A stretch of 64,000 bases of DNA, taken from the NCBI RefSeq assembly GCF_000293865.2, contig NZ_ALKN02000001.1:1-64000 (forward strand), written 5' to 3'. The first letter of the stretch is position 1; each line of letters starts with the position of its first letter. Below, one piece after another: positions 12,517 to 17,125 of the stretch. The notes under the pieces are model-generated. The model was not told the DNA's origin. It saw only the letters and a program-made list of their open reading frames with translations, and did no database searches. The translations under genes were made by a program, and so were the position numbers. This DNA comes from Limnohabitans sp. Rim28 (lineage in GTDB: Bacteria > Pseudomonadota > Gammaproteobacteria > Burkholderiales > Burkholderiaceae_C).

Positions 12517-12921
12517 TTACTTCAAGTGCTTGCCGATCAAGCCGGCCATCTCAAACATGGTGACTTGAGCTTTACCGAAGACAGCCTTGAGTTTGTCGTC
12601 GGCATTGATGGCGCGGCGGTTCACGCTGTCTTGCAGGTTGTGTTTCTTGATGTAGATCCACATTTTGCTGACCACTTCGGTACGTGGCAGTGGGGTTGAG
12701 CCCACCACAGCAGCCAATGCAGCGCTAGGAGTCAATGCTTTCATGAAAGCCGGGTTAGGTGTGCGCTTGGCGGCCGGAGCAGCTTTTTTGGCAGGCGCCT
12801 TAGCGGCTACTTTTTTTGCAGGTGCTGCTGCTTTTTTAGCTGGAGCAGCTTTGGTTGCCGGTGCTGCTTTTTTAGCGGGTGCTGCAGCTTTTTTGGCCGG
12901 GGTTTTTTTCGCAGTTGCCAT
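12517..12921 (-). CDS. SWIB/MDM2-domain protein with histone H1-like N-terminal tail
   Basis: A 134-residue small DNA-associated protein. Residues 1-53 are almost only Ala, Lys, Pro and Thr in AKK/PAKK repeats, like the tail of bacterial histone H1 homologues. Residues about 59-133 form a SWIB domain (MKALTPSAALAAVVG, PLPRTEVVSKMWIYIKKHNLQD, the INADDKLKAVFG turn). Such proteins are common in Burkholderiales and Chlamydiae. They are presumed to bind or compact nucleoid DNA, but the target is not known. The chosen ATG is preceded by AGGAAA; the frame is open further upstream but not in a tail-like composition. Expression is likely from the minus-strand promoter at 12986-13014. Confidence 0.88.
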   Translation of the reverse strand: MATAKKTPAKKAAAPAKKAAPATKAAPAKKAAAPAKKVAAKAPAKKAAPAAKRTPNPAFMKALTPSAALAAVVGSTPLPRTEVVSKMWIYIKKHNLQDSVNRRAINADDKLKAVFGKAQVTMFEMAGLIGKHLK

Positions 12922-12985
12922 GATGAGTTTCCTTTGGTCGGAAGTGGGTTCGCCGCTGATAAACGGTGTGTTTACAGCTAGAGCG

Positions 12986-13014
12986 ATGCTAATGGAGAAA
13001 CGGGTAGTTTCCAA
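12986..13014 (-). promoter_or_regulatory. Candidate sigma-70 promoter of the SWIB-domain gene
   Basis: Read on the minus strand: TTGGAA (13014-13009), a 17-base spacer, then TAGCAT (12991-12986). Each box matches consensus at four of six positions, with ideal spacing. Transcription would start near 12979 and give a leader of about 58 bases. Confidence 0.4.
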
Positions 13015-13333
13015 GTGAAAAAATCATTTTTATCTAGGTGTTGTTCCTGATTTCCACACTTCATCGTTTTTTTCTACCTATTGTCTTTTCTGTTGCATGT
13101 TTCCCTTGTTCTTTGAATTGGATGCTGCACATCGCTTCAGTTCTTTGGTTTGGTGGTGGTGTTGGTGGTTTTTTTAAACGAGATGCCATTGGCGTTTTCA
13201 CAATTCATTTTAGGTTTTTGCAATGTGGAATTTTTGTTTCTGCTGCTTGCTTTAACGCCTTTTGAATGTGAAGTTGTTTTTTGCATGGTGACAAATGCCT
13301 TTCAAGTCATTGATTTTAAACAAATAAAAATAA

Positions 13334-13354
13334 GTCTTATATAAGACATAAGAT
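13334..13354 (+). promoter_or_regulatory. Operator-like palindrome 1 upstream of aceA
   Basis: The first 14 bases (GTCTTATATAAGAC) are a perfect palindrome. They are followed by a further half-site-like TAAGAT, giving a 21-base unit that recurs 30 bp downstream with two mismatches. The pattern suits a dimeric DNA-binding regulator, identity unknown. Confidence 0.6.
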
Positions 13355-13363
13355 CAATTAACA

Positions 13364-13384
13364 GTCTTATATAAGAGTTAAGAT
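13364..13384 (+). promoter_or_regulatory. Operator-like palindrome 2 upstream of aceA
   Basis: The second copy of the 21-base unit, with core TCTTATATAAGA intact and the outer pair changed (G...G). Its centre is exactly 30 bp from the first, about three helical turns, so two dimers could bind on the same face. The TATA-like core may overlap the aceA -10 region. It ends 68 bases before the aceA ATG. Confidence 0.6.
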
Positions 13385-13452
13385 TGGATCAACGACACAG
13401 CAGACAGTGCTGCAAAAGTCGTCTGATTTCAACTTGACCACAGGAGCTACCC

Positions 13453-14784
13453 ATGTCATCCAATAGCACTCAAACATTAAGCCGTGAACAACAAATTGCC
13501 GCTCTCGAAAAAGATTGGGCAACGAATCCACGTTGGAAAGGCGTCAAGCGCGGTTACTCTGCTGCCGACGTCGTTCGCCTCAGGGGCAGCATGCCGATTG
13601 AGCACACCTTGGCTAAGCGTGGCGCAGAAAAACTTTGGGAAAAAGTCAATGGTGGTGCCAAGAAGGGCTATGTCAATTCCTTCGGTGCCATCAGTGCAGG
13701 CCAAGCCATGCAACAGGCCAAGGCTGGTTTGGAAGCCGTGTATTTGTCGGGTTGGCAAGTGGCCGCGGACGGCAACACGTCAGAAACCATGTACCCCGAC
13801 CAATCACTTTACGCCTACGACTCGGTGCCGACCATGGTGCGCCGCATCAACAACACTTTCAAGCGCGCCGACGAAATTCAGTGGGGCCGAGGCATCAACC
13901 CGGGCGACAAAGAATTCATTGACTACTTCCTGCCCATCGTGGCCGATGCAGAAGCGGGATTTGGCGGCGTGTTGAATGCGTTTGAATTGATGAAGAACAT
14001 GATCGCCTCCGGCGCTGCCGGTGTGCACTTTGAAGACCAATTGGCAGCCGTTAAAAAATGCGGTCATATGGGCGGCAAGGTCTTGGTGCCTACCCATGAA
14101 GCCTGCGAAAAGTTGATTTCTGCACGTTTCGCGGCAGACGTCATGGGCACATCGACCATCGTGTTGGCCCGCACCGATGCAGAAGCGGCCAATCTGATCA
14201 CATCAGACCACGATGCCAACGACAAGCCATTCTTGACGGGCGAGCGCACCCAAGAAGGTTTTTACCGCGTTAAAAACGGTTTGGAGCAAGCCATCAGCCG
14301 TGGTGTGGCTTATGCACCTTACGCTGATTTGGTGTGGTGCGAAACTGGCGTGCCAGACATTGGTTTTGCCCGTGAATTCGCGCAAGCTGTTCATGCCGCA
14401 TGTCCAGGCAAGTTGCTCTCCTACAACTGCTCGCCATCGTTCAACTGGAAGAAAAACCTCAACGACAGCCAGATCGCTTCTTTCCAAGAAGACTTGTCGG
14501 ACTTGGGCTACAAATACCAGTTCATCACATTGGCGGGTATCCACATCAACTGGTACAACACTTTCCAGTTTGCCCACGCTTACGCCAATGGCGAAGGCAT
14601 GAAGCATTACGTCAACATGGTGCAAGAGCCTGAGTTCGCTGCCCGTGACAAGGGCTATACCTTTGTGTCGCACCAGCAAGAAGTAGGCGCAGGTTACTTC
14701 GACGACGTGACGACCGTTATCCAAGGCGGTTCGTCTTCTGTGAAAGCCTTGACCGGCTCGACCGAAGAAGAACAGTTCCACTGA
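13453..14784 (+). CDS. aceA: Isocitrate lyase
   Basis: A 443-residue glyoxylate-cycle enzyme that splits isocitrate to glyoxylate and succinate, allowing growth on acetate or fatty acids. The catalytic signature KKCGHMGGK is at residues 201-209, with catalytic Cys203. Also seen are [10 protein letters not shown] (substrate and Mg binding) and [13 protein letters not shown], and the late [10 protein letters not shown] motif. Length matches the approximately 430-residue bacterial class. AGGAG just upstream supports the ATG. It is preceded by two palindromes likely to control it. It converges on monomeric icd, which competes for the same substrate, with a shared terminator between them. Malate synthase is not in the window. 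Confidence 0.98.
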
Positions 14785-14887: not shown

Positions 14888-17125
14888 TCACATGGCTTTC
14901 AGTGCATCGTTGAATGTTTTGCTCGGGCACATGATGGTCTGTAACTTCTCAGCTGAGGGGAAGTAATAACCACCGATGTCCACCGGTTTGCCTTGAACAG
15001 CTTGGAATTCACCAACGATTGTTTTTTCTTGCGCTGTCAGTGTTTTGGCCAAGGACTCGAACTGCTTTGCCAGTTCGGCATCGTCGGTTTGCGCGGCCAA
15101 TTCTTGTGCCCAGTACATAGCCAAATAGAACTGGCTCCCACGGTTGTCGAGTTGGCCTGTCTTGGGAGACGGATTCTTGTTGTTGTCCAAGAGCTTGCCA
15201 GTGGCAGCATCCAAGGTCTTTGCCAAAACCCCAGCCTTTTTGTTGCCGGTCTTCAGGCCCAGGTCTTCCAGCGACACGGCCAGCGCCAAAAACTCACCCA
15301 GCGAGTCCCAACGCAGGTGGTTTTCTTCAACCAACTGCTGCACGTGCTTGGGGGCTGAACCGCCCGCACCGGTTTCATACATGCCGCCACCAGCCATCAA
15401 GGGCACGATGGAGAGCATTTTTGCCGATGTACCCAATTCCATGATCGGGAAAAGATCCGTCAGGTAATCACGCAAAATATTGCCGGTGGCGCTGATGGTG
15501 TCAAAGCCACGCACCACACGCTCCAGTGTGTAACGCATCGCGCGAACTTGGCTCATGATCTGGATTTCAAGACCAGCCGTGTTGTGCTCATGCAGATACA
15601 TTTTCACTTTGGTGATCAGCTGAGCTTCGTGTGGACGGTACTGGTCGAGCCAGAACACCACAGGCATCCCGGAGTTGCGCGCACGAGTCACAGCCAATTT
15701 GACCCAGTCGCGGATCGCAGCGTCTTTGACCTGGCACATGCGCCAGATGTCGCCTTCTTCCACGTCTTGGGACAGGAGTACCTCACCCGTGTTGATGTCG
15801 GTGATGTTGGCCACGCCATCTTCTTGGATTTCAAAAGTCTTGTCGTGCGAGCCGTATTCTTCTGCTTGCTGCGCCATCAAACCGACATTGGGCACTGTGC
15901 CCATGGTCTTGGGGTCGAAAGCGCCATGCCATTTGCAAAAATTAATCATCTCCATGTAGATGCGCGCAAAAGTGGACTCAGGCATCACAGCCTTCACGTC
16001 TTTGAGGCGCCCGTCAGCGCCCCACATTTTTCCGCCGTTGCGGATCATGGCGGGCATAGAGGCGTCCACGATCACGTCGTTGGGTGAATGGAAATTGGTG
16101 ATGCCTTTGGCAGAATCCACCATGGCCAGCTCGGGGCGGCCTTCGTGGCACGCGTGCAGGTCACGCTTGATCTCGTCTTGTTTGGATTGGGGCAAAGTGG
16201 CTACTTTGGCATAGAGATCGGCCATGCCGTTGTTCACGTTCACACCCAGCTCTTTGAACAAGGCACCATGCTTGGCAAACGCATCTTTGTAGAAGATTTT
16301 GACGCAGTGTCCAAACACAATGGGGTGTGAAACCTTCATCATGGTGGCTTTGACGTGCAGCGAGAACATGACACCCGTGGCGTGTGCGTCTTCGATCTCT
16401 TTTTCGTAAAACTCCAACAAAGCCTTCCTGCTCATGAACATGCTGTCGACCACTTCGCGATCCAGCAAGGCCACTTTTTCTTTGAGAACAAGGGTCTTCC
16501 CGGTTTTTGTGATCAGTTCCATCTTCACTTCACGTGGGCGATCCATGGTCATGGATTTCTCGCCGTGGTAAAAATCGCCAGCATGCATGTGTGACACATG
16601 CGAGCGCGAAGCCTGACTCCATTCAGCCATGCTGTGGGGGTTTTTGCGCGCAAACTCTTTGACTGCACGTGGCGCGCGTCGGTCTGAGTTGCCTTCCCGT
16701 AGAACGGGATTCACGGCGGAGCCAATGCACTTGGAATAGCGAGCCTTGATCGACTTCTCCTCGTCGGTTTTAGGCGCATCTGGGTAATCAGGCAACGCAT
16801 AACCCTTCGATTGCAATTCTTTGATGGCCGCTGTCAATTGGCCAACAGAAGCGCTGATGTTGGGCAATTTGATGATGTTGGCATCCGCCTTGAGCGTCAG
16901 TTTGCCCAGCTCAGCCAAATTATTCGGGGCACGTTGCTCGGCAGGCAACACATCAGAAAACTCGCCCAAGATGCGTGCAGCAACTGAAATATCGCTGGTT
17001 TGTACATCGATACCAGCAGGTTTTGTGAATGAGCGAATGACTGGCAAAAAAGCCGCTGTGGCCAACAAAGGCGCTTCGTCGGTCAGTGTGTAAATGATTT
17101 TGGGTCGAGCTGTAGGCGTTGTCAT
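14888..17125 (-). CDS. icd: Isocitrate dehydrogenase (NADP+), monomeric type
   Basis: A 745-residue single-chain enzyme that oxidises isocitrate to 2-oxoglutarate and CO2 in the TCA cycle. It is recognised as the monomeric (IDH-II) class by its size and by segments such as [14 protein letters not shown] at the start, the long [20 protein letters not shown] substrate loop, and [31 protein letters not shown] and [18 protein letters not shown] near the C-terminus. It is unrelated in sequence to the dimeric E. coli Icd. The start is an ATG followed by MTTPTARPK; the ribosome site is weak. It converges with aceA at a shared terminator. No palindrome like those before aceA is seen upstream of it. 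Confidence 0.97.

Follow-up and report, generated by a model that had tools for sequence, protein, structure and literature searches.

Tandem palindromes upstream of the isocitrate lyase gene aceA as predicted operators of the GntR-family regulator SdhR in Limnohabitans and related Comamonadaceae

The isocitrate lyase gene, aceA, of Limnohabitans sp. Rim28 is preceded by two palindromic repeats that are very probably operators of SdhR, a regulator of the GntR family. Judged by its letters, the pair is a further predicted target site of a known, computationally predicted SdhR regulon; as a tandem operator it is ordinary in kind and well supported by sequence comparison. This assignment names a probable regulator for entry to the glyoxylate shunt in a large bacterial family of fresh waters and soils. 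It also links that entry with the sdh-gltA cluster and argD and, for some relatives, with aconitase B. The window, by which we mean the whole stretch of 64,000 nucleotides that was analysed (contig NZ_ALKN02000001.1, positions 1 to 64,000), contains the following features in the operator and promoter region.

13334 to 13347, no strand assigned: predicted SdhR operator, distal copy, the perfect 14-bp palindrome GTCTTATATAAGAC (genome and family scans)
13348 to 13353, plus strand: outer half-site ATAAGA of the extended SdhR consensus, equal to the right arm of the published motif TCTTATGTCTTATATAAGACATAAGA
13364 to 13377, no strand assigned: predicted SdhR operator, proximal copy, GTCTTATATAAGAG (genome and family scans)
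13379 to 13384, plus strand: predicted -10 box of aceA, TAAGAT (conserved TAnnnT)
13453 to 14784, plus strand: aceA, isocitrate lyase, 443 amino acids (NF011645, 754.5 bits against a cut-off of 562)

A first-pass annotation of this DNA had described a perfect palindrome, a second copy with an intact 12-bp core, agreement at 19 of 21 bases and a 30-bp period, and direct comparison bears out all of these. The letters and coordinates of the distal palindrome are correct; the proximal copy, GTCTTATATAAGAG, differs from it by one letter and retains the core TCTTATATAAGA; the 21-mers that start at 13334 and 13364 are identical at 19 of 21 positions with their starts 30 bp apart, and the gap between the two 14-mers is 16 bp. 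Two other statements held in part. The annotation saw TAAGAT after each copy as a shared extension of the repeat. After the distal copy, ATAAGA is indeed the outer half-site of the published SdhR consensus, and across 49 pairs in the family sample the most frequent letter accounts for 81-100% at all six of its positions; the TAAGAT after the proximal copy sits at the conserved -10-like TAnnnT of the relatives and probably belongs to the promoter. Further half-sites were also said to extend the palindromes, and this is right for the right arm, while the left arm is weak in both aceA copies, so that each site consists of a palindrome and mainly one outer half-site.

A+T-rich palindromes form easily, but the motif exceeds chance. 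The window has two palindrome matches at three or fewer mismatches against 0.27 expected, and two of 100 shuffles also gave two. The genome as a whole (3,407,253 bases in 67 contigs) has four sites at two or fewer mismatches in 3.4 Mb and none for the reversed pattern. Two of these four lie before aceA. The third (C9:25161-25174) lies between mdh and a divergently transcribed GntR/UTRA gene that heads the sdh genes and gltA, and the fourth (C9:535-548) lies between a DUF3579 gene and argD. Assignments of mdh, the regulator, sdhA, gltA, argD and DUF3579 were made by HMM, and those of sdhC, sdhD and sdhB by position and by eye.

The site is conserved in front of aceA throughout the family. Among 100 genomes of the same family, aceA was found at E<=1e-100 in 96, as 97 copies, and all 97 upstream regions were used; the four genomes without such a hit were left out. 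We found the site at two or fewer mismatches in 94 of the 97 regions (34 exact, 53 with one mismatch, seven with two) and in three regions not at all. Permuted half-site palindromes had their best match at zero, one or two mismatches in means of 0, 0.003 and 0.26 regions (maxima 0, 1 and 7). The exact 12-mer occurs in 88 of the 100 genomes and its reversed control in three. Pairs are present in 49 of the 97 regions, 44 of them spaced at 30 bp and five at 29 bp with no other spacing within 20-45 bp, when the second copy of a pair is scored at three or fewer mismatches; a single site is present in 45. The notion that the pair is an A+T-rich chance repeat devoid of function is thus of practically negligible probability and can be set aside, given the shuffles, the reversed controls, the permuted palindromes and the conservation. 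The first-pass annotation had named, among the findings that would overturn its reading, a palindrome missing before aceA in close relatives and scattered at random elsewhere; the genome and family scans gave the opposite picture, and as far as the sequence goes its proposal of an operator pair for aceA stands, with the site in 94 of 97 regions, every pair 29-30 bp apart and the motif otherwise nearly absent from the genome.

A second set, of named loci, tells the same story. It comprised 80 loci, whose names identify the family as Comamonadaceae; 79 were used and one was too short upstream; the nearest named isolate is Limnohabitans sp. Bal53 (98%). All 79 carry the site, as 63 pairs (61 at 30 bp, one at 29 bp and one scored at 39 bp) and 16 singles, and the 16 single-site loci belong to Variovorax, Xenophilus and Pseudacidovorax. 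Two records call for separate mention. One metagenome-assembled genome titled Akkermansia muciniphila (L241) carries an aceA whose product is 99% identical to this Comamonadaceae protein, together with the same tandem sites, and is probably a mislabelled bin. One family genome (G067, estimated contamination 6%) has two aceA copies (L150 and L154), with an exact SdhR palindrome before both.

The owner of the motif was suggested by a full-text literature search that located the 14-mer in a single paper, PMC4494728. In the part of that paper available to us, the motif TCTTATGTCTTATATAAGACATAAGA is given for SdhR, a GntR regulator of the HutC subfamily, with a citation of Suvorova et al. 2012, J Bacteriol. 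Of the 26 letters of TCTTATGTCTTATATAAGACATAAGA, the distal site shares 22, with its last 20 letters identical throughout; the copy ahead of the GntR gene also shares 22, and the proximal site shares 19. That gene (L006 6224-7009) encodes the domains PF00392 and PF07702 by HMM and has a motif copy of its own ahead of it, at C9:25161-25174, as expected of an autoregulated gene; the closest solved structure to its product is the effector domain 3cnv (E 2.9e-54). Because subfamily, place and motif agree, the GntR gene beside sdh is the probable SdhR ortholog. Searches of the open-licence literature turned up no experimental study of SdhR and no binding or expression data.

The resemblance to the published operators, so far as the consulted portion of PMC4494728 describes them, extends to the same palindrome, the same outer half-site and a HutC-subfamily GntR regulator, whose gene lies here beside sdh. 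The arrangement differs: the published SdhR motif is one 26-bp palindrome with additional symmetry, whereas the two palindromes at aceA follow each other with a 30-bp period and have mainly a single outer half-site each. The same source describes GntR-family operators that are flanked, on one side or on both, by a weaker half-site at 7-12 nt from the operator centre, and leaves its function open; compared with these additional half-sites, it is the right arm that dominates at aceA.

In the family sample, loss of the aceA site also goes with loss of SdhR. SdhR is present in 93 of the 100 family genomes (E<=1e-40). G021, G043 and G090, the genomes with the three site-less aceA regions, all lack SdhR and retain mdh, sdhC and sdhA; in each of them mdh adjoins sdhC and tblastn finds no SdhR between the two, in contrast to G005, which has SdhR there. 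On an aceA tree built from 22 of the 97 copies, chosen around the three that lack the site, these genomes require three separate changes. In G021 the operator has gone and a TTGATT block and the TAnnnT at +44 are still in place. Two other genomes, G074 and G084, have the aceA sites and no SdhR hit; they give no sdhA hit either, and so the SdhR/sdhA locus is probably missing from the assembly.

Across the wider order the association is less complete. In 150 order-level genomes the exact 12-mer is present in 54 of the 63 with SdhR (E<=1e-60) and in 25 of the 87 without (Fisher p 2.4e-12, a value that ignores relatedness). The nine SdhR genomes that lack the exact 12-mer count against the SdhR reading, as do the 25 that hold the 12-mer somewhere with no SdhR hit at that threshold, although a more distant SdhR in those 25 is possible. 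Ownership of the sites by a different regulator with an SdhR-like motif would account for these 25 genomes. We consider it distinctly improbable, since in three separate cases the loss of SdhR goes with that of the site before aceA and, among the matches listed, 26 of 26 SdhR-bearing order-level genomes have the site 44-244 bp before the SdhR match. Within the order, all four sampled genomes of one family (f5: G103, G153, G198 and G238) have one or two exact 12-mers and no SdhR hit at E<=1e-60; the motif may be used there by a distant SdhR or by something else.

With SdhR retained as the very probable owner of the sites, their position relative to the promoter suggests how they might work. We see no good -35 box, and a simple sigma-70 scan gave no promoter, so the promoter was placed by the conserved TAnnnT. 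Counted from the first base of the distal operator, or of the lone operator where there is one, this element lies at +44/+45 in all 49 pairs of the family sample and in 39 of its 45 single-site regions; in the named set it is found at that place in 61 of 79 loci and is missing in 18. TAAGAT at 13379-13384 is likely to be the -10 box, and we infer a transcription start for aceA near 13391. The single site of relatives keeps the distance of the distal copy to the -10 box, so it is the distal copy that has its counterpart in the lone site of other genera, and the proximal copy is the addition. The proximal copy falls between the -35 and -10 positions and the distal copy lies just upstream.

Repression by occlusion is the most likely mode of action, because the proximal copy occupies the -35/-10 spacer. 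One SdhR dimer would bind each 14-bp palindrome together with its outer half-site, bound SdhR would bar RNA polymerase from the aceA promoter, and a metabolite would free SdhR from the DNA and so induce aceA. The 30-bp spacing, close to three helical turns, would bring two dimers to nearly the same side of the helix, where they would probably bind cooperatively. Cooperative binding of two dimers is plausible because the spacing is fixed, yet 45 of the 97 regions have a single site. What the sequence itself shows is the sites, how rare and how conserved they are, their agreement with the published motif, the regulator gene and the coupled losses; binding, repression, cooperativity and induction are inferred. 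That some members of the family have one operator and others two at a fixed spacing, and that regulator and site were lost together three times in nature, makes both cooperativity and the role of SdhR directly testable.

The same geometry bears on two other accounts of the sites. SdhR might bind and activate aceA, or do both depending on its ligand: in single-site relatives the whole site lies upstream of the -35 position, from where an activator could also act, and the promoter is one without a good -35 box. We think this unlikely, for the proximal site fills the -35/-10 spacer in 49 pairs, an occluding position, and solved relatives from the same family, such as YvoA and DasR, are named as repressors. 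Perfect palindromes could also form hairpins, and the repeats might then be an RNA element, a hairpin or attenuator, in the aceA leader. This is very improbable: the -10-like hexamer is downstream of both copies, so transcription from that promoter would include neither; at gathering scores Rfam gives nothing in 12900-13500, and no terminator-like site is present in 13000-13460. Occlusion by SdhR remains the reading that we favour.

Paired boxes upstream of glyoxylate-cycle genes are known elsewhere. RamB of Paracoccus denitrificans, an ScfR-type activator, has two nearly identical boxes 18 bp apart upstream of such genes, according to the portion of PMC10370305 available, and resembles the present case in being a regulator with two boxes at this location. 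Its boxes are 18 bp apart, whereas the aceA 14-mers are 16 bp apart and match a GntR motif, a comparison with ScfR made on spacing; the wild-type RamB probe printed in that paper does not contain TCTTATATAAGA. In Shewanellaceae, PdhR (GntR) and PsrA (TetR) control TCA and aceBA genes, as described in the section of PMC5343134 consulted. There, too, one regulator spans sdh, gltA and isocitrate lyase, but PdhR and PsrA are other proteins, and SdhR is absent from the table of that paper that was available. In the literature that could be searched we found no description of the two-architecture pattern, the coupled losses, the promoter geometry or the array of palindromes further upstream that is described below.

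The other sites outline a wider regulon. We examined 16 further sites, hand-picked among the family matches listed: 12 are at argD (with a DUF3579 frame readable opposite in eight), three are before aconitase B and one is close to a gene for an acyl-CoA dehydrogenase. HMM checks covered the three aconitases, a single DUF3579, a single class-III aminotransferase, which we took as argD, and two genes next to the acyl-CoA dehydrogenase site; the rest were identified by eye. From these positions the regulon looks like the citric acid cycle and glyoxylate shunt with a branch to arginine synthesis. The aconitase B gene of the Limnohabitans genome itself has no such site at two or fewer mismatches, so the regulon differs between species. 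An SdhR-type site at argD, often within a DUF3579-argD divergon, was seen in this genome (L005 145-1855) and in 12 relatives (L173, L174, L175, L177-L182 and L185-L187); it ties arginine synthesis and the DUF3579 gene to the TCA regulon.

Sequence conservation upstream of aceA does not stop at the SdhR sites, and three more features of the window lie ahead of the distal operator.

13216 to 13230, no strand assigned: degenerate palindrome TTTTGCAATGTGGAA at array position -118 (4 of 15 mismatches to the idealised consensus)
13279 to 13293, no strand assigned: degenerate palindrome TTTTGCATGGTGACA at array position -55, 63 bp from the first (4 of 15 mismatches)
13310 to 13315, plus strand: conserved block TTGATT, some 24-25 bp ahead of the distal operator (alignment of relatives)

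A TTG is found 21-28 bp upstream of the operator in 42 of 45 single-site regions. A longer conserved block, AAGTCATTGATTT (13305-13317 in the window, about 25 bp ahead of the operator), is kept in G021, the genome that lost its SdhR site. The window has an FNR-type box with one mismatch at 13310-13323. Scored on ten fixed letters, such a box is present at two or fewer mismatches in 34 of 94 relatives (26 of the 34 at -24 or -25) and at one or none in eight of 94; its TTGAT half is conserved and its other half is not. We neither claim nor exclude an FNR site at 13310-13323.

Further upstream, matches to TTTCGCATTGCGAAA at five or fewer mismatches of 15 peak in the 94 site-bearing regions at about -140, -119, -77 and -56 from the SdhR site, where they number 33, 62, 43 and 64; elsewhere between about -200 and -15 there are 48. 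The commonest steps are 63, 21-22 and 41 bp, and 13194-13293 in the window holds two of the four positions. In a control with 38 permuted palindromes unlike TTTCGCATTGCGAAA, the best three-base window reached 21 (mean 4.4). In a second control, which kept permutations close to the motif, one permuted palindrome was found in 49 of 94 regions at four or fewer mismatches (mean 4.9) against 78 for the motif itself. The idealised consensus TTTCGCATTGCGAAA occurs exactly in none of the 100 genomes, and the true array motif is therefore degenerate. In this genome it has 16 matches against nine for the control at two or fewer mismatches, and its core had no match in the literature searched. With these counts, no exact copy in 100 genomes and a core absent from the searched literature, we dropped the idea that the array is the site of a named regulator; ScfR/RamB was likewise set aside as its owner, there being nothing in support of it in the part of PMC10370305 at hand.

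Taken together, these elements may form a conserved two-layer switch on aceA in Comamonadaceae, a proposal that we regard as evenly balanced. SdhR operators would lie on the promoter and be tied to those at mdh, sdh-gltA and argD and, in some relatives, at acnB; further upstream, as many as four degenerate palindromes in helical phase would serve a second regulator. If this is so, the tandem and single SdhR designs would represent two stable solutions with different steepness of response.

On the far side of aceA, its convergent neighbour in the window (14888-17125, minus strand) encodes a monomeric NADP isocitrate dehydrogenase, and the two enzymes compete for isocitrate.
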